Of a stretch of 44,331 nucleotides of DNA, positions 116-44,127 are shown piece by piece. The stretch lies in the IMG/VR virus record IMGVR_UViG_3300049617_000097, positions 1-44,331 of that record; one strand, given 5' to 3'. The notes below the pieces were generated by a model, which was given only the letters and a program-made list of their open reading frames with translations, was not told the origin of the DNA and did not search any database. The translations under genes and the position numbers were made by a program. Numbering within the stretch: the stretch's first letter is position 1; every line of letters starts with the position of its first letter. The DNA is from a virus.

Positions 116-209
116 GGCCGAAAAAGCTTGTTCTGATATAGACACTCCTAATCCAAACACAGGACAAGCTTTAATTTTGTCAAAAAAGGATGAATGTTAT
201 GCCGCTTGA
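114..209 (+). CDS. Possible 31-aa leader peptide overlapping the tape-measure start
   Basis: An ATG at 114 opens a 31-codon frame ending in TGA at 207-209, overlapping the tape-measure start at 199 by 11 bases. A weak AGG (102-104) lies 9 bases upstream of the ATG. No family is recognised. The ATG overlaps the TATAAT box at 110-115, so the ORF and that promoter cannot both work on one transcript; translation would need read-through from upstream. It may be a coupling peptide or chance. Confidence 0.25.
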   Translation: MAEKACSDIDTPNPNTGQALILSKKDECYAA

Positions 210-12200: not shown

Positions 12201-15200
12201 GGCACCACCGGCCCAAACAGCTTTAGGAATCCAAAGCACTGGTAGGCGTCAATTATATATTCAAGGTCAAACTCAGCTACTGCAACAGCAGATGTTGGAT
12301 GCACAAGCAGGTCGTGGCGACTTTGGACGACGTACTGGTGAATCAGCCACCGCACATCTTCAACGACAACAACAACAATATGCCCTGTTCGCACAGCAAA
12401 TTGCCGCACTACAGAGTATAGGCACACAGGGTTTGTCTGAGGTGGCAGAAGCTGCCGAATGGATTGCCACAGCCGGACATCATGCAATGGGAGTGGCACC
12501 GGAAGATCAAGCACTAGCTCCTACCGTAATGCCTCAGTGGCTACAATTGTTAGTAAATAGAAGAAGTAATGCCCCGGTAGCCCCAGGAGCAACACCACTC
12601 ACCACTCAGGCACAGGCACAGTCTCTCTTGGCTGATCTTCTTAGAGAATTGAATGCCCGTGGAGATAATCTTCTTGGTACAGCCCGCACAGCGGCAACAG
12701 CAGCACCCGACAGCGATATTGGACTGTTACAGAGACAACTTAACGCCCGTCCACCAGGACCAAGCAATTCCCGACCAGTGAGTGATTGGCAAAATGATAC
12801 ACAAGCTATGCTCAATACAACGACAAGAAGGTTACAAATTGAATTTGCTACCCAATATCAAATTGTGGCAAGAAATGTAGACCCTACCAATCAGAAGGCT
12901 GTTGCTGCTCAGGAGGTTGCTGCTATGCGATTAGGAGAGATTAGCAACCAGTTGGCTTTATTACAAACATTATATCAAAGTGGCGTAAGTGGCAATAGGT
13001 TTACGACAGCAATTGGTGGTAATTTACAAAACATGATGAATGCTGCAAACGCTGCCACTATCGCTCTGCAAAATTATGAAGAAGCTTTAGATAAGGCCAG
13101 AGAGGCTGCTGGTAATTTGGCTACAAGTTCAGAGGAGTATCAAGATTTACTTGACCAATGGACGACTCATGGAGAAGGAGCAGGATTACTTGCTGAATTA
13201 AATGCTGCAAGAGCTAACCTTGATAGATTGTCCGGGCCTCTCACAACTAGCATTGCGGGGGTTCCAACGACTGGTGAAGGAGCCGTCAGAGATCCGAATA
13301 TCATCCTTCGTGAACTTCAAGAAACAATAAGAGGACTTCCTGGGGTTGAAAGAGAAATAGACACTCAGTTATTGGCACGATTCCCAACATCTGAAGAAAG
13401 ACAGCCAGTAATAGCAAGAGAAACAGTAGCTCTTACAGAAACAGTAAATAGAATGTTGGCAGGGCGTGGTGATCCAGGCACGCTCAATCCACAAACGCTA
13501 TTGCAAAATTTGTATCGATTGATTGTGCTGCAAAACATACAAGGAATACAAACTAGCCCAAGTGTATCCGCCGTAACAGCTATCGATAGCATAAATCGCA
13601 ATCCATCTGTTCAGAATATACAACAAAGTGTGACTCAATTTGAAACTGCAATGGGACAAATTGCAAGAGGCGTTGGCATGCACGGAGCAGTTGTCCCGGT
13701 AGGGCCAGTGCCCACAGATGGCACAGCAAGACGAACGGTAGCATTGCCAACATATGCTCCACTTCCAGTTCCTGCTCTTGGCCAAACGCTTTCACCTGCA
13801 ACCTTCCAGCAGCTTACTGCAAGATTGGAAGAAACAGCTAGAATTTCCCTTCAAGATCGTCTATATGATCGAAACAGACCTGGCCTGCCAAATAATTTCT
13901 GGAGAATGATAGATGCTAATAGTCAGTTAGATGCTGCTGGACAACCAACAGTAAGAAGGAATCTTTTTGAGACAGAAGAAAGACAAATATTAGAAAGATT
14001 ACAACATGCTATTGAACATGGCAACGATCAACAAATTACTCTACAATCGTCGCAATTAGCTGAATTGAGAGAAGGTAACAGAATTGCCCAACGAATGACG
14101 GAATCCCAAAATGCATTGCGAGCAGCATTCGCAGCAAGAGGTCGGCCAGAACTGGCCAACGTAGAAGCAACTGCTTGGAGAGACGCAAAAAGAAATTGGG
14201 ACGCAATGGTTGCTCCAGTGACAACAGGAAACTCATTAGGAACTGGACCGGCATTGCCAGGTACAAGAGGAGGTGTTGGAGGGGCATCACCAGGAGTGCA
14301 GAGTGCTGATTTACAAGCTCAAATGGCAATTAGTATGAACCGCCAGACGATAAGGCAACAGGATAGAACTCAATTGATGTCGTCGGCACAGGAGTATCTT
14401 TCTCGTTTAGGGCCAAATCAACAGGCTGATGTAAATGATCGTGGCATGAACGCTTATGCAGCCGTCGCTCGGTTCGGAACTCGTCGTGAAAGATTAGTTG
14501 AATACAACCGTATCATGCCGCAATTACAGACAGCACTCCAAAGTGCTTTAAGTTCTTATCGAACTACACCAACAGACAGCACATTCAGATCGTTCCAAGA
14601 AGCGGCACAAAGAGTAGCCCAAGCAGAAGAGGGATTGAATGAGCCGGTCAATGTGTTCAATGAAGCTGTAGATTTATTCCAGCAAGCCACAAATAAATTT
14701 GACGAGTCAATTAGAGCATTAGATCCTAATGAACAAGCCAGGTTGAGAGATCAAGCATTGCAAAGACTGAACCAAGCATTAAACACTCTGGCCAATGCAA
14801 ATGTAAACGTTCAAGAATACGGGAACGTAATGATGCAACAAATCAGATCGTTAGGAAGAACTAGCGATGGTAGAACAAGAACTCCTCAAGAAATCATTAC
14901 TGAGATTCAAGCAGTACCTGAAGTAGCACAAACTATACAACATCCAGAACGGTATGCAACTTTCAACGCAGATTATGCAAGAATCCATGATGAGGTAGTC
15001 AGAATATGGCAAGAGTTACAAACTCTTGATACCACTACTGAAGAGGGACAAGATCGTGAAATAGCAATTTTAGACCGCTTGCGAAGCGATGAAGTTAGAC
15101 GAATTGCTCCTTTTGAACAAAGATTATTGGAAGCAATGAGCGGCATAGAAGAATTAAATAGTGACTGGGAAGAGTATTTGACATTGACCGGAGGATATCA

Positions 15201-18200
15201 TAGTCAAGAAGATGATTTAACATACCGACGTATGTTAGAAGATCAATTCAATAACTTCAAAGGTTTGTTAGACCAACAAGCAATGTTCCAGTTAGCCGCT
15301 CGAAACGTTCGCCCAGGCCAGTTAGAGGCTGCTGTAGCAAACCCACAAGCTCTTAATGCAGCATCGGCACAAATAATGTCGCAGATTATTCAGTCGCTAA
15401 CACCAAGATTGAGTCAACAACAGTTTCAACAACATCCTGTTTATGGAGCATTGTTACAAACAGGACGTGGAGGTTATGTTGCCCCTGCTGAAAGAGAAGA
15501 TGATTGGGAAACCTGGGAGAGACAAGAATCTATCAGGAGAACTCGTACTCAATGGCGTGATACTCAAGTAACACAACGACAACGACAAATTGATCTAAAT
15601 CCTAACAACGCAGCGTTGGTAACACAGATGCAACAGGAAATAGCTGCTATTCAACGAATCCATCAAATGATCACAAGTGAAGATTACTTAGGTCAAGAAG
15701 ATGTTGCATATTTCCGTCGTCCAGCGTTAAACAGAATAGGAATGCCACAACCTCCAACTTTACATCCAGCAACTGGAACAACTCCAGCAATTCCTGCTCC
15801 TAGATTTAATGAAATTCCTGGCAATTTAAGCGGTTTTACTTCCAGCATCATGGATCAGTTTTTCCGTGGCACATCGAGCCCCTTCTACCAGCCAACCGCT
15901 GCGGATACACAAATGCCAGGAGTTCAAAGTGGTCTTGCCGCTTTGGCAGGCGTGGATTGGACGCCTAATGCCCAGCAAAGACTGCAAAGCAGACTTAACG
16001 CAGTCAATGGTGTGTTGCAGTCACTATGGACGAACCACAGTCGTATTTTGAATGCACATAACCAATCAATTGATGCTGGTGGGGTGGGTAATCAGGAAGA
16101 AGTCTTAGAGTCTCAGAGGCAGTTCCTTGCTGCCATGCGAATATTCGCAAGGCAAATTCCTGAGCTTGGCAACATGTTACTGGAATATCAATTACAAGCA
16201 GTTAGAATGCCTACACCAGACGAAATTGCCGCCCAACCTCAGCCTCAATTGCCAGCAAGTCCATCGGCTTTGAACTTCCACTTAGGCCGTATTGATCGAA
16301 GGGATACCAATTCAGAAGAATTCGAACAATCGTTGCAGCAACTATTTGTGCTTGCCAGACAACATCCGGCAGTGGTTACTGAATTCATAACTCCTTCCAT
16401 TAATATTGCAAGAAGTCAAGCAGCACTACCCGAGACATCAGAAGCAGACAGGATGCGTCTTACGTCACAAGCTGATGTTCTTCAGTGGTTGATAAACAGA
16501 GTGCAATTGGTTGGCCAACCGGCTCCTCCAATGCAAATTCCTAATTTTGCCAACACGCCTGTACATGCCATCCTGCAACCTGGACAAGTTGGTCTTCATC
16601 CTATCACTCCTGTTCCTGTTCCGGGGGTCCAAGGTAGCCCTGTTCAAGGTCTGGCTGGTAGTTGGAGACCGGCAACTGGTGGTCAACCAACGCCTAGCGA
16701 CAGTGGTCAGCCTGGCGGCACTGCACAACCAGTTCCTAGTGGTCAGCCTGGCGGCACTGTTCCTGCTCCTCGATTTGGTGGTATTGGCGACGACATTGTT
16801 CGACTCCTTGATGATCTTATTCAAGATGCTGTTCGTCTCGCTCAGCAGGGAGCCGCTGGACCTCCTGCTCCACAACCACAGCCTGTTGTGCCTCCTACTC
16901 CTAATGGCAATGGTGGTCCACCTGTGGTGCCTCCTGTTCCACAACCACAGCCTGCTCCTAGTGGCAGTGGTAGTGGCGGCGGCGGAAATGCTACACCACC
17001 TGCTCCTCCTGCTGTGCAGCCTAATATTCCTGCTCCTAATGGCGGCGGAAATGCTACACTGCCTGCTGCTCCTTCTGTTGGACGTGGTGGTTTTGGTGGT
17101 GGTTTTGGTGGCATGCCAAACATGTTTCCGCCCCAAACACAAGCTATGCCAGCACCAGTTGTTGAAGGATTACCGCAGCAACAAACAAGCATCTTTGATA
17201 GGTTGCCATTTGGTCAACAACTACGATCAAGATTGCGACAAGGATTTGGTGGTGGCGTTGGTGGTGGACAAGCCGGTAGCGGAATGGGTGGTGGCGTTGG
17301 TGGTGGACAGTCCGGTAGCGGAATGGGTGGTGGCGTTGGTGGTGGACAGTCCGGTAGCGGAATGGGTGGTGGCGTTGGTGGTGGACAGTCCGGTAGCGGA
17401 ATGCCTTCTCAAGGATTGCCAATACAAATAACCCCACCACCACCGATAACTCCAAATATTCCTCCTCCAACTTCAACAGGAAGTGGTGGAGGAATATTTG
17501 GTGGTCCAGCAGGACCGTTGCCAACAGGAGCTACAAGTTCGACTCCAACGGTTGGTGGTCCAGCAGTCCCAGCAGGTTCATTGCCAACAAGTGGAAGCAT
17601 AATTGGTCCAGCAGGTCCAGAGGGCACAGGAACAATTGTTACAGGTACGCCTGTAGCTCCACCTGGCCGACCTTCATCTGGCCAAGCTTGGCAACCAGGC
17701 AGCGGTATGGCACTGGATCTTAACAACCAATTATCACCAAACGACCCGTGGCGACAAACTGTTCAACATTTTATTACTCCAGATGGACGACAAAGAATAG
17801 CTGGTCGTGTGATGCAATTTACTGGTGCTGTAATGCAGGCAATTAACAACCGAATGCCAGTGCCGCAGTCGAATACGGGCGTTCTTCTTAATCAACAAGA
17901 ACAAGCAGTATTGCAGGCTCAAGGTGTCCCTAATTGGATTCAATACATAGCTGGGAGAAGAACCTTCAGAGTTGTTGATGTTCATCCTGGTGGTGATCTA
18001 ACCAAAACGGAACGAAGATTAAAAGATGTCACCCAAAATATTATGACTCAACAGGAGCAAGATGCTCCAGAAACCTCACCAGGAATAGGAGGAGGTTTTA
18101 TGGCACGATGGATAAGAGGCGACAGAACAATTCCTGATAGTCCACCATTTTTTGGACAGCCATTTGTAGGCCAGGCTGACAATGGTTACGCACAGGGAAA

Positions 18201-19743
18201 CTGGGGTTTTAGTGGACCTTACGCAACTCGTCAAGACAATTCTTACGTGCTTGGCGAAGCAGGAAAAGCAAAATTGCCTGACTTTTTCCAAGCAGCTTAT
18301 AACTTGGATCGTGTTCCAGGTGGGATGTCTGGATTGGACCCAGAAGATTATGGGAATTTCCTTTATGCACTTCAAACCAACTGGCATGGCATTAGAGATT
18401 ATTTTCCAAACGCACTTACAAATTCGAGCATGGACCCAAGTAGAGCAGGAGCGAGTGCCCAATCCGGTTGGACGCTACCTCCATATTACAGACGGCTAGA
18501 TGCTGGAGGTTATCTAACAAAACAAGAGCCAAATGGTCCATCATGGGGAAATCTCATAAGAGAAAAAATGAATCAATATAGAGGATTTCAACCGCAAGTG
18601 CAGGCACAAAGAAATGCTGCTATTAATAGGCTTAACAATAATAAGACAGGAGAAATAACCCAAGCCGAACGTGTGCAACTTCCACACGACATAAAACAGA
18701 TGCCAATGATACAGCAAGGAGATGTAGAAGCAGTGCAACAGAATCCTACGGCTCCGCTTCAGGTGCCGATACCAGAAGCACCGGCCCAGCCAATTATTTC
18801 GACCCCAGCAAATACTCCTTTCTTACTTCCTGTGCCGAACAATACGGGGAATTCTGCCAATCCTGCTTACCCCCCTGTTCAACAAATTCCTAATCAGGGG
18901 ATTGGAGGAAACTTCAATCCGCAGGGTCAAGCGGTTGGCACTCCAATGGTATCCCAAACTGGCATAGCTCTTATTCACCGAGGAGAAGCTATCGTGCCAG
19001 CACAATATGTAAGCAGACTTTCAGAAATGATGGGAGACTATCGTCACACAGGTCCGTTCCGTATGCCTGATTCTGGTCAAGGGTATATTCCAGACTTAAT
19101 AAGAACAATTCTTGAACTAAGAAATGCCATCAGGGAACTAAGCTATACGGCTGACAGACCATCATTTAACACTTCATGGCTTCGTGGAACTAATGCACAG
19201 GAAGAAGCAACAGAACCAACTACTGATTGGATATTGCCATACAACGGATTGGTCACAGTCGTTACTGGTGCTTGGCAATACATACAAGATGAGGCTTCAA
19301 GATACTTAAATGGCTTGATGGAAAACGAAGGCAACATCAATGTAGTACCTATAAGCAGCAGGAATGAACAGCCAATCCCTGAAGTTCGAGCAAAACTGCC
19401 AACAATGCAGGAGCTTGATGTTGAAGAGGCGATACGTCGTCATCGAGCAGAAACACAAGTCGAAGCTGGAGCAGAAGACGAATATAGTGAAGATATCGCT
19501 GATAATACCGAAGAAACAGCTAAAAATACCAGCAATATGGCCAAGGCTCTTGTGGCTGTGGCAAGTCTGTTAGAAGGTATTCGTGCCTTATTGGCTGGCG
19601 GCGGTAACATTAAGGGTAAAAAAATAAACGGTGTTGACATAGATAGACTTATCAGGGAGACAGATTTGGACATTGATAGTCTTCCTACTCAATACGACCA
19701 GACCTACAACCAATCTGCTGGTCAAGACATGACTGAAACATAA
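199..19743 (+). CDS. Giant tail tape-measure protein (6,514 aa) with embedded enzyme-like domains
   Basis: Probable tape measure: it sets tail length, fills the tail tube and is ejected with DNA. Evidence is its size, its place just before the baseplate genes, and tape-measure motifs: GGIVPG-type repeats in the first third, a helical core (about 8500-9200), membrane-like hydrophobic stretches (4250-4390, 7570-7640, 8029-8221, 10153-10420), a long Q/A-rich coiled coil (about 10420-16400), Pro/Gly linkers (16600-17700), and a GIALIHRGEAIVPA motif near 18960. The N-terminal third carries HD and ART-like domains (separate entries). An ATG at 190 is in frame, but AGGA at 187-190 suits the ATG at 199 (8-base spacing). 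At about 0.15 nm per helical residue the upper limit is near 1 micrometre. Role sure; domain functions inferred. Confidence 0.9.
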   Translation: MPLDNLGREIKPITWEDFDKLIKDADETGEMKLKPGVEGKSEEQKGSDKTQEQIEENSAELLKKFDKVLELLSRLTGKNLKDEVKQAGNHLNQAVTFIEPKGKRQEFKNKFDSIGISRAIEDGLKNVTEQLQSAFHVREQVMPIHMQAQTPSVRFDNKLAEIMSNGFASLLQKLDQVGTDAVSNSLAPDMIESSRTREESEEATDNLNQYKPTNGILDSLPTLTQPYKFDFIGQDYESLVPEKKTVHKQLPLNVTNDNVNAVMPVTSGIPIEAAINTITSMLKYKLADDMPGLLPVTARPYEYQAINELPDPKPIVQPLMLMVMNDISDMLPTTLQVPVEPTFDNKAMKALVSSTAFEMPEPREQDPIFVHSQEREVKDNQLTTRRIINSNTAALPPPAREKQDKVLGFHNGGIVPGYPTHKDTQPATLNVGDTVISEPKVMAAGGPSHVYSKIMGTPPRALESDSGKEVAAALTPREVVIPERKATPIRSELLQFNRTGDFSYFDNNVSTQSRSLGKAQQTKRPASILPQSLTVGGIAGEYQKGGIVEKADSIADAAHGSIGQKRKWEGDLPYIVHPRAVRDKVKEMAGMTETDESAALLHDVIEDVAIPTKSVKEYEDKIQQEVGTEVLSLVRELTQPSSGPEFKDKSRDEKNAANWKHMEGISDRAKRLKMVDRFDNLKGYKNNPPKFMKRYLPESRKVLEICRSSDEIMAKELENRIIEAENYLNQQEVSAVDLPTMPEVSAKPSGYKRGEVPPPKGTQEIPKGHIRAYHYTKGSPDDVLRDGIKISMAKGHTYGEPDLVWGSTQPPDPHHNIVEFHVPAKDPSGMAEKPYGDLDEWQKGNHHIGLHRDVTPEEIIAIHEHWHDRYRYIQKNPDVKEAVIAGEHDNLITDPEYGPAILKVKSEAAQAKVSVEPLKIPQLATGGIVKKSAGGTLVNVGEGRYDEAIIPLKGTKQTAALTEALNVPTTEVSTKLPMPAGLAKGKTPQGLTVGGITGEYEDGGIVKSSIMSAGGPSHVYNQMGFAPATLERTIGQAPVALTPREVVTPDVAEPFEFNETDNRADDLEFVFDAEKRVALHRGLKQPFQRYTPEIQEQHENIKDSYREWVESGKLPEAFPQYKQMMWLNKIGKPQYFTPYKGDAEEYAGPGGEVVSIEIPEDMAMESIQSILRDTYAFSGQNLHEIIQDYGVKKTKASTEQVPQGYMMFEGGAVPSKPLLPIPAGLTRDVVPPTITPAEVSTASELGLTSPDIGVNVPDLAAPELGTFEAPTIKMPEMPKVDLSPSTVAPPAKKGPGILSGLGVLKGTYTKTKERVDKATDVPGIKQIKGLSKVTSEWIYKKLEERHGPVAAKGIIAGGAGTGWLITFLSGLLTGFPLSIPGQGLVPAIVAAEIYRFLNGSKKPPQGLTVGGIAGEYEGGSLVKDNRLRFEDGGVVPGGPPYEDKVKASLHKGDVVVNRDSVMSAGGPSYVHNQIMNTTPRVLESQSGQIDTLLTPDEVVIPEKTATPILPELLDFNKTGNFSYFDGSPNTVVQPTGFSPKLPMPTGLAISPPTLMKTGGVASQEASEQKTTVLGELGELLKKVSTTKKRERNAAGNTNLAHIRDLIMAGATQEELKQGMKTFTRGELKEDTIATYISKVRKQIAEENTAKQVAPIEVPTTPAVEVPQFQIALPMVRPTIPSTNNVAVEPELSSAAGEIKEMLSKEMPITLSEIADLFEPIIRMAEMATKQESINVKDTEARLWLSNISHIFSKVTSQRQPTPKASEPEEFTEWNPNKIGGFDPNSLKDWVHKEPKSPEESVKPNIEHDENGPLTLGNAKTLFEPIVKMANEATTPGSIYTEDIQVREVLEEILDALKKTKNPYVKRAKELWESAGRPDKWSSSESEFTEHAKHEALMVPAAEKLAAQLATKIPGTAEWEDEKKSLLPIAHAQLAKEAQKANRPELSPAAIKARTVEDQLLFYTHGPERLASGNKTKYTMEEFYKNDRERLKTNREKLNVKHEMQEQWEEQKKNIKVDEPKDLAIAEKQIRRELVTKEAESLQATAGYGRTKDFEKTAKENLFVDPLRDVTRKLEDIIGKPAKTEAIEPTTGDFCNCLHKEIDRLILALKGMSGVAVPTVKKKSKVANAKSSANFAAPPQNVTAPATPVEEPGIIGIESPTDFAIPEQTIATSLAPPVVTDISPVPPVQGIQPTGFGEQVISPYTVPVQGTQPVPPVQGIQSTGFGEQVISPYTVPVQGTQPVPPVQGIQSTGFVGQIVSPAPGSIAPAQSIIQGTAPAAPIQPSIVEGFQGAPPIQPNVVQDISFASPAQPGIQGTPVVPPAQPGTTGFESPTSFMAQSQTAGGPPGAGFADIGTAIGNSPGEATSSAGFSGVGGIISSIGGFAGSTVGGLADVVVPGDGELAAGAAGATGATGATGATGATGATGGEEFCNCLNTEISRLIKAIEKCFHDIIKQLADAIAIALVVALTGGIGGAAVGGEAAAGEAAGAGAGSAIPGAAAESEGGFLSKFGSYLGSLFSPRDKKEDKENKHPGRKEDPFDALIDALKHYFDRRNVIRRMGEIMTSENQDLVGNLLHTFNIGDMAGGFIKLGTKLVKTIWTVISNLFVDSVSLLGKALKGLFGLIGLGWLISPIFDFLTSIFSGVATFLGKVVGVLGEALGSIVGGLLNILSKAIADEAKYFQAIRQSLYRVEGINRGPAVKEDFGPPEEGKQMPRRSTAFDANWAKQEEAIKKYLITLDDIRETGQSMTVLQQGQLRLQERGIRALGVENRVRNTGLHIAKQLGMHAESTLDMFADMHQGLQMGVLDLHQMGLNMRYVSEQTGLTGASLAEVVKQSKQYMTNMRNAGTMTTGAGRNTMQLLAEATTTGTTEGMGHLLQQLSQSVLTGEGGPSRNLAFMATGMSGANSGQLMEDLLGGTILQSRSSMQAFADGLENTMMLFTNNRRLDEIKDANERGRISAMMRQSIGVGLQELDLLATNFRRASRTFAQVYQDIKDNKDLTEVQRDQQLDTAASREIMEQLTEFGGILRRNQGANVGSLVQAFNQSRSTEVQTNIGAISNINAEGNVSANVVSMLTYAMERIQKQRAELNMKPLPAGQELTPQRLTDAMSRGTAGMQELLAQIAEQNQQIAEERRGQADPITRIEKIINEIVGYLRLIANAIIVAFGQIANGMIDGLKGPVADIFSGQGEKMTKGFGELRDYIRNFDNTANTMLGNINANMKDGWEKTVSQITVVVIQYIMKIVEALIETYEWFKTTAVPWLIQMWDNILAWWKDTAWPWLKDELWPGIVAAYKTVEGILIDIYKWWTDTAWPFLRDNWPALLAILGLILIACLANSNPLLLLVAAVGGIAAWLANKFGLDPVGGAAGAMGGMAIGAGIGAFEGPLGAVIGGAIGAIAGGIVGAIWGEIRKEEAAREAEGKAAAKQLEAHHARMDQIAQERINFEREISRQAEARLANERRVTAEIEQRERNALAQAQRLRETTGVDVHNPNANIADIRAHVTTEQITARQRSMFPADTPHTRQALTPIIQTQTIGAQTRLTDAQRELEQAEQALAASQQTIQGNATSQANINTELKRLATQRENTNAEIESQQQLINTRQRWMQTGRNADGSQVSTRQRSTYEAQIAGAQGEQVRLRRVLTQLAESIQEQQNRRTGIAGGSRDATAANEAASRRRDAAQVGVATAAHNLQEVQMAGADMLAHHIDPIQQGRADLREAVRDLGRGRASANTSPEQMFRLQAGFETRLGEALRASGTDENITKLADIYKEEMMRNSPASLINTREGTASRNIMSQQLTMAERQARLQEEQNRLMREFHDAQQRNDARRQAELLAGLAENSLMRQEGMQRLQATVAAMRNVIGPEGVNQGYSQTLITALQNEGGIEGVRRRTGGRTDPTTPGISQAEANAIRALEEFHQIQTLRTRAEAPQPTTGGEQAVLHWQQDTARAREGLASRRQQAQAEAAATAIWTHVNQAGGTVQQQMDTAVSLWREVIPQEQLLQAPPAQTALGIQSTGRRQLYIQGQTQLLQQQMLDAQAGRGDFGRRTGESATAHLQRQQQQYALFAQQIAALQSIGTQGLSEVAEAAEWIATAGHHAMGVAPEDQALAPTVMPQWLQLLVNRRSNAPVAPGATPLTTQAQAQSLLADLLRELNARGDNLLGTARTAATAAPDSDIGLLQRQLNARPPGPSNSRPVSDWQNDTQAMLNTTTRRLQIEFATQYQIVARNVDPTNQKAVAAQEVAAMRLGEISNQLALLQTLYQSGVSGNRFTTAIGGNLQNMMNAANAATIALQNYEEALDKAREAAGNLATSSEEYQDLLDQWTTHGEGAGLLAELNAARANLDRLSGPLTTSIAGVPTTGEGAVRDPNIILRELQETIRGLPGVEREIDTQLLARFPTSEERQPVIARETVALTETVNRMLAGRGDPGTLNPQTLLQNLYRLIVLQNIQGIQTSPSVSAVTAIDSINRNPSVQNIQQSVTQFETAMGQIARGVGMHGAVVPVGPVPTDGTARRTVALPTYAPLPVPALGQTLSPATFQQLTARLEETARISLQDRLYDRNRPGLPNNFWRMIDANSQLDAAGQPTVRRNLFETEERQILERLQHAIEHGNDQQITLQSSQLAELREGNRIAQRMTESQNALRAAFAARGRPELANVEATAWRDAKRNWDAMVAPVTTGNSLGTGPALPGTRGGVGGASPGVQSADLQAQMAISMNRQTIRQQDRTQLMSSAQEYLSRLGPNQQADVNDRGMNAYAAVARFGTRRERLVEYNRIMPQLQTALQSALSSYRTTPTDSTFRSFQEAAQRVAQAEEGLNEPVNVFNEAVDLFQQATNKFDESIRALDPNEQARLRDQALQRLNQALNTLANANVNVQEYGNVMMQQIRSLGRTSDGRTRTPQEIITEIQAVPEVAQTIQHPERYATFNADYARIHDEVVRIWQELQTLDTTTEEGQDREIAILDRLRSDEVRRIAPFEQRLLEAMSGIEELNSDWEEYLTLTGGYHSQEDDLTYRRMLEDQFNNFKGLLDQQAMFQLAARNVRPGQLEAAVANPQALNAASAQIMSQIIQSLTPRLSQQQFQQHPVYGALLQTGRGGYVAPAEREDDWETWERQESIRRTRTQWRDTQVTQRQRQIDLNPNNAALVTQMQQEIAAIQRIHQMITSEDYLGQEDVAYFRRPALNRIGMPQPPTLHPATGTTPAIPAPRFNEIPGNLSGFTSSIMDQFFRGTSSPFYQPTAADTQMPGVQSGLAALAGVDWTPNAQQRLQSRLNAVNGVLQSLWTNHSRILNAHNQSIDAGGVGNQEEVLESQRQFLAAMRIFARQIPELGNMLLEYQLQAVRMPTPDEIAAQPQPQLPASPSALNFHLGRIDRRDTNSEEFEQSLQQLFVLARQHPAVVTEFITPSINIARSQAALPETSEADRMRLTSQADVLQWLINRVQLVGQPAPPMQIPNFANTPVHAILQPGQVGLHPITPVPVPGVQGSPVQGLAGSWRPATGGQPTPSDSGQPGGTAQPVPSGQPGGTVPAPRFGGIGDDIVRLLDDLIQDAVRLAQQGAAGPPAPQPQPVVPPTPNGNGGPPVVPPVPQPQPAPSGSGSGGGGNATPPAPPAVQPNIPAPNGGGNATLPAAPSVGRGGFGGGFGGMPNMFPPQTQAMPAPVVEGLPQQQTSIFDRLPFGQQLRSRLRQGFGGGVGGGQAGSGMGGGVGGGQSGSGMGGGVGGGQSGSGMGGGVGGGQSGSGMPSQGLPIQITPPPPITPNIPPPTSTGSGGGIFGGPAGPLPTGATSSTPTVGGPAVPAGSLPTSGSIIGPAGPEGTGTIVTGTPVAPPGRPSSGQAWQPGSGMALDLNNQLSPNDPWRQTVQHFITPDGRQRIAGRVMQFTGAVMQAINNRMPVPQSNTGVLLNQQEQAVLQAQGVPNWIQYIAGRRTFRVVDVHPGGDLTKTERRLKDVTQNIMTQQEQDAPETSPGIGGGFMARWIRGDRTIPDSPPFFGQPFVGQADNGYAQGNWGFSGPYATRQDNSYVLGEAGKAKLPDFFQAAYNLDRVPGGMSGLDPEDYGNFLYALQTNWHGIRDYFPNALTNSSMDPSRAGASAQSGWTLPPYYRRLDAGGYLTKQEPNGPSWGNLIREKMNQYRGFQPQVQAQRNAAINRLNNNKTGEITQAERVQLPHDIKQMPMIQQGDVEAVQQNPTAPLQVPIPEAPAQPIISTPANTPFLLPVPNNTGNSANPAYPPVQQIPNQGIGGNFNPQGQAVGTPMVSQTGIALIHRGEAIVPAQYVSRLSEMMGDYRHTGPFRMPDSGQGYIPDLIRTILELRNAIRELSYTADRPSFNTSWLRGTNAQEEATEPTTDWILPYNGLVTVVTGAWQYIQDEASRYLNGLMENEGNINVVPISSRNEQPIPEVRAKLPTMQELDVEEAIRRHRAETQVEAGAEDEYSEDIADNTEETAKNTSNMAKALVAVASLLEGIRALLAGGGNIKGKKINGVDIDRLIRETDLDIDSLPTQYDQTYNQSAGQDMTET
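1420..1848 (+). repeat. Tape-measure linker cassette, copy 1
   Basis: First copy of a degenerate coding repeat. It runs through GGIVPGYP, AGGPSHVY (near 1525), a TPRALES-like segment, LTPREVVIPE (near 1618), a GDFSYFD segment and LTVGGIAGEY (near 1795). Related copies lie at 2965-3366 and 4405-4795. The HD domain follows it directly. Short GG-rich repeats of this style are usual in tape-measure proteins; this cassette is longer and ordered. Confidence 0.7.
1850..2330 (+). other. HD hydrolase domain of SpoT/MESH1 type inside the tape measure
   Basis: Residues about 555-714 (numbered from the ATG at 190) read as a RelA/SpoT-type HD domain, the fold that removes pyrophosphate from (p)ppGpp. In order: AHGSIGQKRKW, PYIVHP with H580 (codon 1927), AALLHDVIED with H605, D606, E609 and D610 (codons from 2002), and KMVDRFDNL with D679 (codon 2224). 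These match the metal ligands H53, H77, D78 and D144 and the catalytic E81-D82 pair of Rel from Streptococcus equisimilis. No synthetase domain follows, as in stand-alone MESH1-type hydrolases. The motif match is strong; the substrate is inferred, since other nucleotides are possible. Confidence 0.75.
2440..2915 (+). other. ADP-ribosyltransferase-like domain 1 inside the tape measure
   Basis: Residues about 751-909 form a compact segment beginning RAYHYTKGSPDDVLRDGI (H777, codon 2518), then GEPDLVWGSTQP and IVEFHVP. An H-Y/F-T motif followed by 'xxL/I..GI/L' is the usual opening of ART-fold domains such as DarT and the RNA 2'-phosphotransferase group. The distal catalytic glutamate cannot be assigned by eye. 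It follows the HD domain after a short linker and is followed by another GGIV linker. A fold-level suggestion only. Confidence 0.35.
2965..3366 (+). repeat. Tape-measure linker cassette, copy 2
   Basis: Second, partly rearranged copy of the cassette at 1420-1848: ATGGIVKKS, LTVGGITGEY (near 3172), SAGGPSHVYNQ (near 3235) and LTPREVV (near 3320). It separates ART-like domain 1 from ART-like domain 2. Confidence 0.65.
3370..3810 (+). other. ADP-ribosyltransferase-like domain 2 inside the tape measure
   Basis: Residues about 1061-1207 contain VALHRGLKQPF (H1083, R1084; codons 3436 and 3439), then YFTPYKGDAEEYAGPGG (from 3601) and VVSIEIPEDM. The order 'h-R-G ... Y-F-T-P ... A..YA ... G.VV.I.IP' resembles the opening, central strand and following helix of toxin-type ART domains, with FTP where many have STS. 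A catalytic E/QxE was not identified. It may be inactive, structural or a different fold. Confidence 0.35.
4405..4795 (+). repeat. Tape-measure linker cassette, copy 3
   Basis: Third copy of the cassette, with LTVGGIAGEY (near 4417), GGVVPGGP, SAGGPSYVHNQ (near 4585), LTPDEVVIPE (near 4675) and NFSYFDGS. It preserves almost the full order of copy 1. A hydrophobic segment (4250-4390) lies just before it. Confidence 0.7.
6754..6957 (+). repeat. 87-bp in-frame tandem repeat (Pro/Gln-rich)
   Basis: Units begin at 6754, 6841 and 6928, giving an exact 87-base (29-residue) period and about 2.3 copies of a VQGIQ-x-TGFGEQ... motif. The near-identical DNA suggests recent duplication. It lies in a Pro/Gln-rich linker of the tape measure. 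Confidence 0.85.
7405..7476 (+). repeat. 9-bp microsatellite encoding Gly-Ala-Thr repeats
   Basis: Two GCTGCCGGT units are followed by six identical GCTACAGGT units, encoding a collagen-like Gly-x-y run. Because it is in frame and perfect, copy number could change by slippage without breaking the tape measure. It precedes the second of two FCNCL motifs (near 6475 and 7486). Confidence 0.9.
17248..17403 (+). repeat. Four 39-bp tandem repeats (Gly-rich)
   Basis: Four back-to-back 39-base units (17248, 17287, 17326, 17365) each encode GGGVGGGQ(A/S)GSGM. Copies 2-4 look identical at the DNA level. They form a flexible glycine linker in the C-terminal part of the tape measure. Confidence 0.9.
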
Positions 19744-29273: not shown

Positions 29274-29747
29274 ATGCAAGTAACAGAAAAACATGAAATG
29301 CGAGGAGAGATATCTGTCAAGATAGATTATTTCGACGGACGACCTTCTGAATACAGAACATTCAAAAACACCATCTTGGACTCAGCCAGAAAACTCTGGG
29401 CTAACTTTCTTGCAAAGCATGAAAGTGATACTTTTATCAGTACTATGGTTTTCGGAGATGGCGGCACGCACCAAAGCGTTAAAAAACAAGTCAAGCCAGA
29501 GATGACGGGACTGTTTGGAGTAACCAGGGTTTCAAAGCCTGTTATTGCCCAGATAGATCCAGAAAATCCCAAGCATGTAATTTTTACCGCTGTCGTAGGA
29601 AAAGAAGACGGCAATGGTCATGCCTTGAACGAAATGGGATTGAAATTGAATACAGGGGAGCTGTACAGTCTAGTCACGTTTATGGACCTCAACAAAACTG
29701 ATCAATTTCAACTAACGTATCACTGGCGGCTAATCATAGTCGGTTAA
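29274..29747 (+). CDS. Tail-fibre-collar-like protein (157 aa)
   Basis: The region FGDGGTHQS, a strand-rich middle, and NEMGLKLNTGELYSLVTF followed by KTDQFQLTYHWRLII resembles the N-terminal attachment domain of phage tail-collar fibres, where 'NE.GL....G.L......K......W.I' is conserved. Here the domain stands alone; it may be a small adaptor between gpI and the fibres coded downstream. AGGAGC precedes the ATG. Moderate confidence on family, lower on role. Confidence 0.5.
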   Translation: MQVTEKHEMRGEISVKIDYFDGRPSEYRTFKNTILDSARKLWANFLAKHESDTFISTMVFGDGGTHQSVKKQVKPEMTGLFGVTRVSKPVIAQIDPENPKHVIFTAVVGKEDGNGHALNEMGLKLNTGELYSLVTFMDLNKTDQFQLTYHWRLIIVG

Positions 29748-29750
29748 TTT

Positions 29751-30293
29751 ATGGTTTTATACAAGAAAAAGATTATCCCCTATGGGTTTATTGTCATTTG
29801 TCCTACACCAAATATAGGACAGATTAAGATGACGTTGAACTCACTAAATGGCAATTACGCACATCGTCCCGTTGTCACTGTTGTCCCAAAAGACGTGATT
29901 GAGACCGATCTTGGCGATTTAGCCAAGATCGGTCTCGTTGTAAAAGGAGAAGACTCGCTGACATCCCAGATCAACATTGGCATGGCCAAGACTAAATGCA
30001 AGGAGTGGAATTTCATAATACAAGCCGGAACATGGGTTCAGGGCTTGCTAGACATGAAATTCTCTCAATTCATCGAGTCGGAAAAGGACATCTTGTTTCC
30101 TATTTTGAACAAAAAAATCACATTCACAGAAGCTAGTTGGAACGGGACTCTTATCCACAAAGAAACAATAAAGAAACTTGGACCTTTCCCGGATAACAAT
30201 CCAGAAGACGTTTGCAAATTACTTTGGACAATAGAAGCTATTGAACTAGGCTACAAGTTCAAGGCGATAGTAGGTTCATGTCACTTAAATTAA
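29751..30293 (+). CDS. GT2-like glycosyltransferase-like protein (180 aa)
   Basis: Residues FIVICPTPNIGQIKMTLNSL and INIGMAKTKCKEWNFIIQAG, then NGTLIHKETIKKLGPF and ED..LLW..EAIELGYKF, follow the order of a short GT-A (family 2) glycosyltransferase. The usual metal-binding DxD is replaced by QAGTW, so it may be inactive or use another mechanism. It starts 3 bases after the previous stop and ends where the minus-strand endonuclease stops (TAA|TTA, abutting). An exact 15-bp inverted repeat lies inside it (29901-29936). Confidence 0.4.
   Translation: MVLYKKKIIPYGFIVICPTPNIGQIKMTLNSLNGNYAHRPVVTVVPKDVIETDLGDLAKIGLVVKGEDSLTSQINIGMAKTKCKEWNFIIQAGTWVQGLLDMKFSQFIESEKDILFPILNKKITFTEASWNGTLIHKETIKKLGPFPDNNPEDVCKLLWTIEAIELGYKFKAIVGSCHLN
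29901..29936. repeat. Perfect 15-bp inverted repeat with 6-base loop inside a coding region
   Basis: GAGACCGATCTTGGC and GCCAAGATCGGTCTC flank GATTTA. The whole element is in frame in the glycosyltransferase-like gene. No T-tract follows, so it is not a simple terminator. It could be an mRNA hairpin, a protein-binding palindrome or the scar of an inverted duplication. Confidence 0.85.
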
Positions 30294-31532
30294 TTACCTC
30301 TTGCTTTTATGATAGTGTTGATAAGCAGGCCGATGAGTTATATCTGGTAATGTTTCCAATAATTCCTCCAAAGAGCCAACAATTTTCGTGCAACATCCTA
30401 ATGCCCACCAGCTTAATTTATTCAATGGCTTGTTATTGATGTTTATAAGGTATAGCTTTTTCCCAAGCAAATAAGATTGACCAATTTCGTGGAATGTGCC
30501 TCCCCCGAGGAAATCATCATAGTAACACACTACAATGCCAGCCATCTTTACAAAATAAAGATCATTATCTATGATTTTCCTAAAGTTTACTTGAAATTTT
30601 GGAAAGTCAGAATCTATGGTTTCTCGCCAGCCATCATCTAAAAGCAATGTGTTTTCTTCCTTTGTTGGATCAATACAATAATACCCCTTTTCATTCAAGA
30701 GTTGTTTTAAGTTCCTTCGCCATTTTATGCCGCCGCTTGGATGATACTGCATGGCACCGGCAAGATAAATTACATTATCTCTTTCGGAATTAAGTATTTT
30801 GTAAAGCATAGATGGTAACATATGGAATTTGATCAAATCAGTAAGTTTGACAGCATTTTCTTTGTCAAAGCCAAGTTCATAGTAGGTTTTGGCATAGCGT
30901 TTACTGTATGCCTTTTTAACAGTTGTTTCAATATTCCATTTTTGTTTGAAATATAACGATAATTCATTATTTTCGTGTTCGGCAAATCCCCTAGTATGTA
31001 AATGATAATTATATCCATTATCAAGCGATCCATCGTCGCAAAACCAGATTGCCAAACTTAAAGGTGTAAGTTTCTCCAAAAAACTAGCCACAGGTTTTTT
31101 AATTCCATCTGGATATAATTCATTTCTAACTTCTTTAATTGTGTCTAGTGCTAGAGTTCTAATGCGGCACTTGCTCTGAGCTATGCTGATTCCAGCACCT
31201 GAAATAATTGACTTTAGCTTATAATTTAGCCAAAATAAATAAGGATATTGCTTTGACGAATGTACAATTTCAACCTGTCCAGCCGTGCTTGCATGACCAT
31301 CGCCCATTAGTGTACCATAAATAATTTCTTTTTGTTCTTCTGTGAACAATTTTTCATTAATTGAAGATTTGCGTACAAAAGAAATACCGTAAAGTCCACG
31401 TAATCTCCTAATGGTTTCTTCGTGAAATCCATATTTAGATGCAATTTCTTTGTCTGTTTTTCTTTTTTCAACATATTCAAACTCAAGCAATTGTTTACTT
31501 ATCACGTCAGAAACTTTGTTCATATTTCTCAT
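30294..31532 (-). CDS. LAGLIDADG homing endonuclease fused to a nucleoside 2-deoxyribosyltransferase-like domain (412 aa)
   Basis: Residues about 10-52 form a helix-turn-helix. Residues 70-79 (IIYGTLMGDG) and 158-168 (ending WFCDDG) are the two LAGLIDADG motifs with their catalytic acids. After the endonuclease-type end near 245, residues 253-398 read NVIYLAGAM, DNDLYFVKMAGIVVCYYDD and GGGTFHEIG, the layout of nucleoside 2-deoxyribosyltransferases, in which GT..E carries the nucleophile (E349). An ATG at 31586 is in frame, but AGGAG lies 7 bases before the ATG at 31532. The stop abuts the stop of the plus-strand gene. The fusion is seen in one frame; activity is inferred. Confidence 0.75.
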   Translation of the reverse strand: MRNMNKVSDVISKQLLEFEYVEKRKTDKEIASKYGFHEETIRRLRGLYGISFVRKSSINEKLFTEEQKEIIYGTLMGDGHASTAGQVEIVHSSKQYPYLFWLNYKLKSIISGAGISIAQSKCRIRTLALDTIKEVRNELYPDGIKKPVASFLEKLTPLSLAIWFCDDGSLDNGYNYHLHTRGFAEHENNELSLYFKQKWNIETTVKKAYSKRYAKTYYELGFDKENAVKLTDLIKFHMLPSMLYKILNSERDNVIYLAGAMQYHPSGGIKWRRNLKQLLNEKGYYCIDPTKEENTLLLDDGWRETIDSDFPKFQVNFRKIIDNDLYFVKMAGIVVCYYDDFLGGGTFHEIGQSYLLGKKLYLININNKPLNKLSWWALGCCTKIVGSLEELLETLPDITHRPAYQHYHKSKR

Positions 31533-31641
31533 TTGTCTGCTCCTGCCGCAAAATATTAAAACCTCGACAAAAATACAACTTAACAACTGAAACTTCTTTG
31601 AGCAAGTCCAATAGTCAATAGAATCTTACTAGTTTAAGAAC

Positions 31642-32400
31642 ATGGAAAATACGATAGAAAAAAGCCTGTTAAGCCAGGTAAATTTTGCTCTCAAGCTTGC
31701 CCCAGAGCAACGCCACAGTTACTTTCAGATGAAACACTTCATCGTCAATAAAGAGCCTACACACCAAGCCAAATTATGGCAATGCCTACGTGAACTGCAA
31801 AGCCGCAAAGACTCCATCGAGTCCATTATTTTTGAGATTGAGGAGGCAAATGATAATATTGCCTTGATAGATATTGAAAAGGAAAAAGGAACTGCATCCT
31901 TGAATAAAATTGTAAATTCTTACGACAGTTATGGTCAAGACATGCATACGGCAGATGTTCTAAGCAGACTTAAGGATAAAGAGCTTTATGTCAAGGAATG
32001 GGAAATAAAGGACCGGCAAATCGTCAGGAAGAAGAAAATTGCCGAAGTAAATCTGCAAAAACTCAAGGAGAAGCAAGCTTATCTGGAACAAGAAACAAGG
32101 TTCTTTTTGGATTGTTACAAAGAACTTAACAAGATTGAGCCGGTTAAGGATTTTGATGATTTAGAGGCACAAACGCAGTATTGGAATGAACGCCTAGGGC
32201 AGGAAGTTACATTGAGAACACTTTTGCAACTCCCGCTTGACGCTGAATTGGCAAAAACCATTTTGTCCCTTGCGGATGAGGTGCCTATCAAGACCAAGTT
32301 GGTTAATTCTCTGAAGCATGTCAGCCAACGCTTGGCTGAGACACAGAGTAAATACTTAGAGTCCCAAAAGGAGAAGAATGTTCAAAAAGAGACTGAGTAG
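31642..32400 (+). CDS. Coiled-coil protein of unknown function (252 aa)
   Basis: A strongly helical, charged protein; residues about 48-160 are a long coiled coil with many Lys and Glu. No catalytic motif, signal peptide or membrane segment is seen. No strong ribosome-binding site lies before the ATG (only AAGAAC). It overlaps the PKD gene after it by 23 bases, so translation of that gene is probably coupled. It could be a structural or assembly protein of the fibre module. The endonuclease gene upstream on the other strand may have separated it from its former neighbours. Confidence 0.6.
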   Translation: MENTIEKSLLSQVNFALKLAPEQRHSYFQMKHFIVNKEPTHQAKLWQCLRELQSRKDSIESIIFEIEEANDNIALIDIEKEKGTASLNKIVNSYDSYGQDMHTADVLSRLKDKELYVKEWEIKDRQIVRKKKIAEVNLQKLKEKQAYLEQETRFFLDCYKELNKIEPVKDFDDLEAQTQYWNERLGQEVTLRTLLQLPLDAELAKTILSLADEVPIKTKLVNSLKHVSQRLAETQSKYLESQKEKNVQKETE

Positions 32401-38814: not shown

Positions 38815-39150
38815 ATGGCTATCCCGCTTACTAAATATGCAAAAATCAAAAATAATTATTGTGTCGGCTATCTTGGCGACAATCCCGAATTGTTGCTGCA
38901 ACTTAAAGTAGTTAGACCTTTCATTGAAAAAGAGCTACCTGGCATCAAAATATTTGTAGCTTGCCAGGATAGACTTGTTCACGTCCTTGAAGGAGAGGAA
39001 CGAATTATCCTGGAAAGCGAACTCTCAGACAAAATATCCGAATGTGCCTTTGCTTATTACCGTGAACTAGATCGTAACGATCCACATTCGGTAAAAATTT
39101 TCCTTAATGAATCAAATATTCCCTATTCATCAGAGGTCTTCAATTTGTAA
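38815..39150 (+). CDS. Glycosyltransferase-like fragment next to an endonuclease insertion (111 aa)
   Basis: Residues about 14-70 (NYCVGYLGDNPELLLQL, then PGIKIFVACQD) resemble the N-terminal half of GT-B type glycosyltransferases and loosely parallel the GT9-like gene at 40961. No C-terminal domain follows: the frame ends 28 bases into the minus-strand endonuclease gene, so it may have been cut short by that insertion. GAGGT lies 6 bases before the ATG, inside the start of the divergent gene. Family call is weak. Confidence 0.35.
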   Translation: MAIPLTKYAKIKNNYCVGYLGDNPELLLQLKVVRPFIEKELPGIKIFVACQDRLVHVLEGEERIILESELSDKISECAFAYYRELDRNDPHSVKIFLNESNIPYSSEVFNL

Positions 39151-40085
39151 AGCATGCATTTTGGCATTTGTTGTTCTAACGCTAATTGTTTCATGATTTT
39201 AAATATTGAACGTGGAAGAACAACTTTATGATCTCTATCATTTAAAACTCTTATATCAGAACTGAACTTCTTATTAAGTATGTTTGCAAATTTTAATAGC
39301 TCTTGATAATCCCAACCTTTGGCGGTAATATATGGATAAGGAGTTCGTCTATCTGAATTTCCTAGAGTTCCATCATCAAGATACCAAATCAACAATCCCA
39401 ACAAATTCAAGTTTTCCATCAAATCTAATGGTATTTTATTTTTAAGACAGTTTTTCCCAGGAGGATAAAATTTATTACGCAAACTGGTAAAAATAGGATG
39501 AGTTTTAGTGGTACATTCTGCTCCATAACCAAGCTTGCAGAAACGTGGAGCAAACACATTTAACTTTTCAATTTTCCATTTTACATAATCTGCTTGTGCA
39601 TCACAATGAACTTCTGAAAAAAAATAAGTTACTCCTTTTTCTTTTTTCATTACACACCCGTCGCCAAGGAGACTTCCAATTAATACTTGAAAAGTAACAT
39701 CATCTAAATCGTTCAAACAAAAAGAATAATCTAGTTGTGCTGAACAATTACTTCTTATTCTTGTTAAAGTTTTCTTTTCTAAATACAGTCCCATTCTTTG
39801 CCGTTGTCCTGCAACGGATGCTTGGCTACGAGTTGGAAATAGTTTTGCTAATTCTTCAATTGGTAATTTACAAGCATGTTGCTTCATAAGTTCAATTTCA
39901 CTTATAAGCCAAGGCACTTGAGTTCTGGTAAATGGTCCATTTATTTTCAGCCTATGTCGTTTAGTTGCGATAGCTTTCGAACTGTGACGAGGCAACAATT
40001 CGACAAGATGTTTTGATGTCTTGTTTGACCCATGTTCTTTTAGAATGGCTATTTCTTTTTGTGTCCATGCTGTTGGCATTGGCAT
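39123..40085 (-). CDS. LAGLIDADG homing endonuclease (320 aa)
   Basis: Two Myb/SANT-like DNA-binding repeats (residues about 5-47 and 58-100) precede two LAGLIDADG motifs at 134-143 (VLIGSLLGDG) and 229-239 (ending WYLDDG), with catalytic Asp residues. GGAG sits 8 bases before the ATG. It is free-standing and minus-strand, between a truncated-looking gene and the ATT-start gene, and its last 28 bases overlap the former. By eye it is AT-richer than the tail genes. A homing role is inferred from the family. Confidence 0.85.
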   Translation of the reverse strand: MPMPTAWTQKEIAILKEHGSNKTSKHLVELLPRHSSKAIATKRHRLKINGPFTRTQVPWLISEIELMKQHACKLPIEELAKLFPTRSQASVAGQRQRMGLYLEKKTLTRIRSNCSAQLDYSFCLNDLDDVTFQVLIGSLLGDGCVMKKEKGVTYFFSEVHCDAQADYVKWKIEKLNVFAPRFCKLGYGAECTTKTHPIFTSLRNKFYPPGKNCLKNKIPLDLMENLNLLGLLIWYLDDGTLGNSDRRTPYPYITAKGWDYQELLKFANILNKKFSSDIRVLNDRDHKVVLPRSIFKIMKQLALEQQMPKCMLYKLKTSDE

Positions 40086-42129: not shown

Positions 42130-43137
42130 ATGGCAATAGGTTTTGATGCTGGCACGTATAACATGGTTGCATGCACTAGAGACGAGAAAAACAACTTCTC
42201 TTATCGTAGAGAAGTCAATGCTTTCTTGGCAATTCCTCTTGAAGACAGGTTCGTCTTTAACATGATGAAAACCAGTGAAGTGCCTTTGGTAGAAAGAGAC
42301 AAGGTTGCTTATGCTCTTGGCGAAAAGGCGGTTCGCATGGCATACAGCATGTCGGACTTTGAACTACGCAGACCAATGAAAGATGGCTGTGTAAATCCAA
42401 AAGAACGAGATGCTTTCGAGATCATGAACATCATGATCCACAGTTTGCTAGAGCCAATCAGGCACGAAAAAGAGCCACTTTATTATTCAGTGCCTGCAAA
42501 TGCTCTTAATGAAGAAACAGATGCTGATTATCATGGAAAGATTCTTCAGGCTATTTTCCGTGCTTATGAATCAGAAAAAGGTTTCAAAGTCCAGGCTTTT
42601 CCAATCAATGAAGGTCTGGCGTTAGTTTATGCTGAACTAGCTTCTAAACAATATACCGGGATCGGCATTAGCTTCGGGGCTGGCATGGTCAATCTATGCT
42701 ACGCCATATTCGGGGCACCCGTGTTTCAATTCTCCATTGTTAACAGTGGTGACTGGATTGATAAAATGGCCGCAAAGGCCACAGGTGAAAACACAACTTT
42801 TATCAACCAAGAAAAGACTAAAATCAATCTTTCTGAGTCACCAAAGACTTTGGTCGAGCGTGCTATTCAAACCCAGTATCGTATTATGTTAGAAAAAACG
42901 GTACAGACAATTAAGAAAGGTATCACCGAATCCGGCAAAAAATCCAGAAGTGATCAGCCTCTGGATATCGTAATTGCTGGAGGTACGTCAATACCTTCGG
43001 GTTTCGATTTAATGTTTAGGGAAGTGGTTACACAAGCGAGCTTGCCAATTCCGATTGGCTCAATTGTGAGACCTACAGACCCACTTTACTCCGTGAGCAG
43101 GGGGGCACTCATTGCCGCTGAGAATTCTCAACAATAA
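42130..43137 (+). CDS. Actin-like ATPase of ParM/Alp type (335 aa)
   Basis: Contains the actin/Hsp70-type nucleotide motifs in order: phosphate-1 GFDAGTYNMV (residues 4-13), phosphate-2 GIGISFGAGMV (177-187) and adenosine motif IVIAGGTS (280-287). Length and layout fit bacterial actin-like proteins such as ParM and phage Alp, which form filaments for DNA segregation or phage positioning. It lies at the end of the structural operon with an AAGGAGA site 5 bases before the ATG. Family call is good; filament role is inferred, since related proteins may act as chaperones. Confidence 0.65.
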   Translation: MAIGFDAGTYNMVACTRDEKNNFSYRREVNAFLAIPLEDRFVFNMMKTSEVPLVERDKVAYALGEKAVRMAYSMSDFELRRPMKDGCVNPKERDAFEIMNIMIHSLLEPIRHEKEPLYYSVPANALNEETDADYHGKILQAIFRAYESEKGFKVQAFPINEGLALVYAELASKQYTGIGISFGAGMVNLCYAIFGAPVFQFSIVNSGDWIDKMAAKATGENTTFINQEKTKINLSESPKTLVERAIQTQYRIMLEKTVQTIKKGITESGKKSRSDQPLDIVIAGGTSIPSGFDLMFREVVTQASLPIPIGSIVRPTDPLYSVSRGALIAAENSQQ

Positions 43138-43185: not shown

Positions 43186-44127
43186 ATGAATACAACGCCG
43201 CCAAAAAATGAGTTACTTGATGTGATAAACACAAAAGCAAACATTCGTGAAGTTGCTAGTCACTATAATGTTGGATGGTCTACCATTAGATGTTGGTTAA
43301 GATGGACAGGAATTAATCTAAAACCACCAATGAAAAGCCTCTTAGCCGATTGCGGGCGATGGACAGATAAAGAAATAGCGGCTAAATATAAGGTGAGTGA
43401 CAGGACCATAGTTAAGTGGAAAAATGAATATGGGATATCAAAGAAAAATATACGCAACGATAGTTTGCCAAAGTCACTAACCGATGAACAAAAGAATATA
43501 GTCGTCGGTAAACTGCTAGGCGATGGTCATGTTCAAAAAATTAGGCGTAAGAATACATGCCTTTCTGTCGAACACTCTTTAGCTCAAGAGGAATATGTTT
43601 ATGGAGTTCATAATATTCTTCAACCGTTAGGCTTAAGTATACGGTATAGATCAAGAAAAAATCCTTTTAAGACAATGAGTCATCATGCTGATATGTTGCA
43701 TAGTTGTTTGTTCAACACAGTTTCATGCCCAATTTTCACAGATTTAAGGCATCAATGGTACAAAGATGGCATAAAAACAGTGCCGGAAAACATAGATCTT
43801 ACATGGCAAACCATAGCTATATGGTATTGCGATGATGGATCTAATTTACTTGGAGAAAGATGTATACGAAGACATGGAGCATTATGTACTAATTCTTTTT
43901 CTCCTACTAGCGTTGAGTTTCTAATAGAAAAATTAAGAGAGAAGTCTGTTACGTCTCATCTTTATTTTGATAATGGGCTACCAATGATTCACATTAATAA
44001 AGAATCATTTATGTATTTTTTAGATTGTGTCAAACAATACATTCCTTGGAAATGCTTTGATTATAAGCTAATGCGAAACAAAACGCAATCTAAAGGAGAA
44101 TATGATGAGTGCAAAGAAAGTTGCTAA
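43186..44127 (+). CDS. LAGLIDADG homing endonuclease (313 aa)
   Basis: Two helix-turn-helix segments (residues about 16-45 and 58-85) precede two LAGLIDADG motifs at 105-114 (IVVGKLLGDG) and 209-218 (TIAIWYCDDG). It is the only one of the three endonuclease genes here on the plus strand. AAGG lies only one base before the ATG, too close for a normal site, and a TATAAT box is 6 bases upstream, so it may be translated from a leaderless message. Its end overlaps the next gene by 26 bases. Homing is inferred from the family. Confidence 0.85.
   Translation: MNTTPPKNELLDVINTKANIREVASHYNVGWSTIRCWLRWTGINLKPPMKSLLADCGRWTDKEIAAKYKVSDRTIVKWKNEYGISKKNIRNDSLPKSLTDEQKNIVVGKLLGDGHVQKIRRKNTCLSVEHSLAQEEYVYGVHNILQPLGLSIRYRSRKNPFKTMSHHADMLHSCLFNTVSCPIFTDLRHQWYKDGIKTVPENIDLTWQTIAIWYCDDGSNLLGERCIRRHGALCTNSFSPTSVEFLIEKLREKSVTSHLYFDNGLPMIHINKESFMYFLDCVKQYIPWKCFDYKLMRNKTQSKGEYDECKESC

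Follow-up and report, generated by a model that had tools for sequence, protein, structure and literature searches.

In fungal mitochondria, fusions of LAGLIDADG endonucleases with rps3 are known (PMC10448965). In relatives of phage T4, endonucleases are found beside or inside nucleotide-metabolism genes and are associated with the conversion of flanking markers; one example is the insertion of mobE in the nrdA gene of Aeh1 (PMC2988022). Nuclease genes also sit at the boundaries of DNA exchange between phages (PMC10448857). Finally, in the ShiLan element an endonuclease is hidden in a phage methylase gene in the absence of an intron or intein (PMC11855218).

The window analysed here, that is, the whole stretch of 44,331 nucleotides, encodes a LAGLIDADG endonuclease and a second domain, predicted to have the fold of an NDT, in one open reading frame. 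NDTs are nucleoside 2-deoxyribosyltransferases. As judged from the sequences, this is probably an NDT-like gene to whose 5′ end a homing endonuclease gene has been joined in frame, and it occupies a conserved slot in the tail module of huge phages; we hold this reading with somewhat better than even confidence.

Each of the described systems shares part of this arrangement. As in the LAGLIDADG-rps3 fusions, a double-motif LAGLIDADG endonuclease is in frame with a useful host gene, and relatives have separate-gene versions (PMC10448965). However, the rps3 fusions lie inside a group I intron, whereas the window belongs to a phage, the partner has the NDT fold and no intron was found between 29500 and 32000. 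The T4-like systems also show an endonuclease beside or inside a nucleotide-metabolism gene, overlapping frames and flanking-marker conversion (PMC2988022), but their endonucleases are of the HNH or GIY-YIG type and mobE split its gene in two; in the window a LAGLIDADG endonuclease is attached to an otherwise whole domain. At the phage exchange boundaries, as in the slot of the window, endonuclease genes occur where phage DNA was swapped. Those islands exceed 10 kb (PMC10448857), in contrast to a swap of one gene, about 0.5 kb, in the slot. In ShiLan, too, an endonuclease is joined to a host gene without a known intron or intein (PMC11855218), but there an HNH gene lies inside the host gene in another reading frame, while the fusion in the window is terminal and in frame.

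Endonucleases fused to, or neighbouring, useful genes are already known, but an NDT as the fusion partner seems to be undescribed in the literature searched. No paper was found there that combines a homing endonuclease, a nucleoside deoxyribosyltransferase and a fusion, and no link between homing endonucleases and deoxyribosyltransferases is visible in the titles and abstracts of the papers that mention both.

One frame for an endonuclease and an NDT-like domain

The fusion ORF (30294..31532, minus strand) encodes 412 aa plus a stop, in an open frame from the ATG at 31532; an AGGAG at 31540-31544 is located 7 nt upstream of this ATG. The ORF consists of an N-terminal HTH and a two-motif LAGLIDADG_2 endonuclease (residues 1-250), followed by the NDT-fold domain (about residues 254-412). 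The initial annotation had placed a complete two-motif LAGLIDADG part and an NDT-like domain in one frame without a stop. This is borne out by the translation, in which no internal stop occurs across 412 codons, and the motifs it named are located at residues 255-261 (IYLAGAM), 322-325 (DNDL) and 343-349 (GGGTFHE). It had also proposed a search for the same fusion elsewhere: scans of viral and bacterial contigs revealed no second copy, a degenerate-DNA scan for GGGTFHEIG gave no match, and the fused gene is known from this one contig, a 44-kb IMG/VR metagenomic record.

The endonuclease part, including an HTH-like segment at its N-terminus, occupies 30783..31532 (minus strand). The LAGLIDADG_2 profile (PF03161) matches residues 68-229 (30846..31331, minus strand; E 7.9e-26; 91.4 bits against a curated cut-off of 25) and is covered from position 1 to 167 of its 168 positions. 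Both motifs, GTLMGDGHA and WFCDDGS, lie within this match, and each keeps its acidic residue (GTLMGDG, WFCDDG); D78, D166 and D167 are invariant in our endonuclease alignment (A13). In a search of the PDB with the full-length model, the endonuclease half matched I-WcaI (E 1.4e-9) and I-SceI (E 2.8e-9). As modelled, this part has the fold of the two-motif LAGLIDADG monomers. The window contains two more LAGLIDADG_2 genes, both unfused, at 39123..40085 (minus strand; E 4.3e-20) and at 43186..44127 (plus strand; with an HTH; E 1.5e-31). In LR745208.1, at about 394-396 kb (L099), a single frame exceeding 1000 aa contains two or more LAGLIDADG_2 matches in tandem.

Two other settings of homing endonucleases were considered and rejected. 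An intron-encoded endonuclease was rejected because no group I intron was matched by Rfam up to E 1 in 29500-32000. An intein was rejected because the fusion ORF has no Hint/intein match in Pfam and because the endonuclease, which has a ribosome-binding site of its own, forms the very start of the protein, with no N-extein before it.

The NDT-fold domain (residues 254-412; 30297..30773, minus strand) aligns with PF05014 (Nuc_deoxyrib_tr) over residues 255-379. Taken alone, the domain has an E of 1.6e-6 and scores 28.7 bits, 0.1 bit under the curated cut-off of 28.8; 24 of the 25 aligned members of the NDT set match this profile at E 0.01. A profile built from the slot NDTs recognizes the domain over nearly its whole length (39.2 bits, i-E 1.6e-10). 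Across the 24 aligned sequences, nine columns show no variation, among them those of Y256, D324 and E349. The D and E of the PF05014 profile align with D62 and E88 of the Chroococcidiopsis NDT, the numbering and catalytic role of which we take from the titles of PDB mutant entries.

A joint alignment of endonucleases and NDTs was discarded, in which the N-terminal half of the NDTs was misaligned onto the endonuclease. Because of this misalignment the full-length model was poor over the NDT half, and the NDT domain was therefore modelled separately by AlphaFold from the 24-sequence alignment (pLDDT 78). The model retrieves solved NDTs from the PDB (best E 5.6e-6), and nearly all of the 32 chains at E 0.001 or better are NDTs or N-glycosidases of the NDT fold. 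The matches also include the CMP N-glycosidases MilB and BcmB, human DNPH1 and, lower down, a Bacillus TIR protein, which supports the earlier suggestion that the C-terminal domain is NDT-like and shares a fold with TIR enzymes; another fold, which would have spoken against it, was not predicted. Antibody heavy-chain matches in a PDB search with the lone domain were dismissed as chance. Fold and conserved Y, D and E positions are shared with the NDTs of PF05014 and with MilB/BcmB, but these are not fused to an endonuclease. The fold neighbours in the PDB comprise both transferases and hydrolases. Judging from the retained active-site residues, the NDT part probably still processes nucleosides or nucleotides within the two-domain protein.

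A different fusion, not counted as a second copy of ours, is present in LR745208.1 (L090, 691-1932, minus strand): here a frame of 414 aa combines an NDT-like domain with a second half that, by eye, resembles NUDIX. In LR756511.1 there is a second NDT (257622-258014) of the same type as this one.

The NDT slot and a proposed exchange of its alleles

The source of the window is a relative of the uncultured 595-kb phage LR756511.1, and the stretch belongs to the tail and baseplate module. About 44 relatives were identified by a baseplate protein (41-54% identity). Two conserved tail-module genes flank the fusion: orf180 (29751..30293, plus strand), convergent with it and 42% identical to its LR756511.1 counterpart, and orf252 (31642..32400, plus strand), divergent from it and 34-43% identical in relatives. 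The same slot, flanked by the homologues of orf180 and orf252, contains a free-standing NDT-like gene on the minus strand in LR756511.1 and in relatives from IMG/VR; in other relatives the slot is empty, with orf180 directly beside orf252. Scanning with the slot NDTs yielded 49 loci, among which some contigs occur more than once; they reduce to 35 distinct gene triplets. Forty-four of the loci adjoin orf252, all but one (43) with the NDT opposite in direction to the structural genes. A genome search with PF05014 missed the domain of the window at a loose first look, and its counts are thus lower bounds. Of 33 distinct alleles, 20 have NDT and orf180 frames whose ends share a few bases; in the window the stop codons of the fusion and of orf180 abut exactly.

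Insertions of 0.2-2.3 kb containing ORFs lie between the NDT and orf180 at ten loci (L117, L118, L121, L124, L126, L134, L141, L142, L150 and L151), the one in L126 holding an ORF that by eye resembles a methyltransferase. The side of the NDT that faces orf180 seems to be an insertion hot spot. In one phage with an empty slot (L148, IMGVR_UViG_3300023184_000046), the same NDT type is found elsewhere, among genes that look like sulfotransferases and methyltransferases.

At a few loci the slot NDT is accompanied by an endonuclease gene. In L112 (IMGVR_UViG_3300037264_003213), the NDT is directly preceded by an unfused LAGLIDADG gene, the end of which overlaps the NDT start codon. In L130 the stop codon of the NDT is immediately followed by an intact HNH_3 gene, and in L127 such a gene lies a short way behind the NDT. 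Behind the NDT of L009 (L129; NDT at 17109-17663) there is an internally deleted HNH remnant of about 90 bp, of which only the beginning and the end are left. Different stages are represented among the loci: the NDT alone, the NDT overlapped by a LAGLIDADG gene, the NDT followed by an HNH gene or by the remnant of one, and the full fusion.

Comparison of closely related loci provides some clues regarding the role of these endonucleases. In the pair L120 and L130, the 4967 bp leading up to the NDT start show 90.8% DNA identity, and from orf180 onwards identity returns, at 80.5%; the flanking proteins agree at 97 and 93%, but the NDTs at only 57%. Between L008 (NDT at 9663-10217) and L009 the flanks are 90 and 85% and the NDTs 52% identical, and between L112 and L120 the values are 72% and 59%. 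In each of the three endonuclease-linked alleles that could be tested, the NDT has been replaced. In the listed pairs that have similar flanks but lack an endonuclease, NDT identity does not fall behind that of the flanks, as in L113 and L120 (flanks 70/66%, NDT 85%). The HNH-linked or remnant-linked NDTs (L130, L127 and L009) are 65-73% identical to one another and are therefore not fully independent cases. Third-position GC is 0.09-0.16 lower in endonuclease-linked NDTs than in their flanks (Mann-Whitney p 0.002) and 0.10 lower in the window; by this measure the linked NDTs are compositionally foreign, although the cases compared are few and partly related and the swaps were already known when the comparison was made.

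These data suggest that endonucleases help to swap versions of the slot NDT gene between viruses; plain recombination in the flanks could be an alternative route. The endonuclease would cut endonuclease-free slot alleles in co-infecting phages, and repair from the armed genome would copy endonuclease and NDT together. The spread of such an armed cassette would convert the resident allele, and in the window the cassette may have collapsed into one protein. As a broader and tentative proposal, possible rather than probable, the slot may be an endonuclease-driven allele-exchange site, at which nucleases of at least two families, LAGLIDADG on the 5′ side and HNH on the 3′ side, have time and again moved different alleles of the NDT from one huge phage to another; here, nuclease and cargo would be one protein, neither easily inherited without the other. 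If the link between endonucleases and NDT replacement holds in more phages, the slot would offer a clean natural test of homing endonucleases spreading useful cargo. It would also draw attention to an NDT-like gene that huge phages exchange, with nucleotide salvage and degradation of host or defence nucleotides as candidate roles.

Possible routes to the fused gene

The L112 locus suggests how the fusion may have arisen. Its endonuclease ends in DNVYS-stop, and the ATG of its NDT lies inside GATAATGTC, with an AGGAG as the Shine-Dalgarno sequence. The endonuclease of the window is 32% identical to it (E 3e-32) and aligns to the same DNV. At this point, in the junction SERDNV/IYL (30765..30785, minus strand; GATAATGT), the window reads GATAATGTA and continues as IYLAGAM. 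An out-of-frame ATG (30773-30775), immediately followed by TAA, is still present where L112 has the true start codon of the free NDT, and may be a relic of an NDT start codon. The distance from the ATG to the first strand is 21 bases in L112 and two in the window, a net difference of 19, which alters the reading frame. A net loss of about 19 nt between NDT start and first strand would put both parts of an L112-like overlap in one frame; in other words, a small indel would give the arrangement of the window. The L112 endonuclease is the nearest to that of the window, yet the two are not supported sisters; for this reason we go no further than to infer that the ancestor of the window passed through such an overlap.

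The proposed course is that an endonuclease gene settled in front of the slot NDT and then fused to it. The initial annotation had suggested that the endonuclease captured a nucleotide-metabolism gene. This came close, but its direction and setting need correction because relatives keep an NDT-like gene at the same slot and on the same strand: most likely, the endonuclease gene became placed in front of an NDT of the slot and fused to it, and did not bring a foreign gene from elsewhere.

The NDT domain of the window itself is about 20% identical to the slot NDTs, against 34-47% for the neighbouring proteins. In the tree it falls outside the slot NDTs, on a very long branch with the sole outgroup, and such long branches limit this test of its descent from them. 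Because of this position the domain may represent another type of NDT that arrived together with the endonuclease, and not the resident type; this would fit the exchange model but not descent from the resident gene. A rather unlikely variant is that an endonuclease captured an unrelated NDT elsewhere and that the ready-made fusion homed into the slot, displacing the resident NDT. The position in the tree, a GGGTxxEIGxxYLLGK pattern in place of the slot pattern and the difference in composition from the flanks are all consistent with it. However, at its 3′ end the fusion meets the orf180 stop in much the same way as the resident NDTs, the slot profile outscores the Pfam profile on this domain (39 versus 29 bits), and the contig scans revealed no such fusion elsewhere.

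Alternatively, the window may carry two overlapping genes as in L112, the seeming fusion being due to a one-base assembly error or to frameshifting read-through. We consider this unlikely. The locus is represented by a single metagenomic contig, L112 shows exactly this arrangement, and the ATG, with TAA behind it, is found where an NDT start would be expected, though shifted by one frame; one base added nearby would give the NDT its own start and end the endonuclease soon after. On the other hand, a start there would place just one residue ahead of IYLAG, whereas the aligned slot NDTs have longer N-termini, and the AGGAG of L112 has no good counterpart upstream of this ATG.

A decaying endonuclease, fused by chance into a non-functional product, is very unlikely: the HNH remnant of L009 indicates that endonuclease genes decay at the slot, and the NDT branch of the window is very long, but the frame is open over all 412 codons and the acidic residues of LAGLIDADG and the Y, D and E of the NDT are kept. 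Least likely of all, and unsupported by the comparisons, is a new bifunctional enzyme whose NDT fold would use nucleotides at the homing site once this is cut, as the initial annotation had put forward, or would regulate the nuclease, since, for all the conserved residues kept in both parts, neither gene order nor the relatives, in which the NDT stands alone almost everywhere, call for it, and gene order and co-inheritance explain the pairing.

Two other genes were seen in the window. A giant ORF of 6517 aa (190-19743, plus strand) at the start of the tail module contains an HD_4 domain in its first half (E 4.2e-9). The gene at 42130-43137 (plus strand) shows a full-length match to the actin-like family Volactin (PF25216, E 8.6e-68), here in a tailed-phage fragment.
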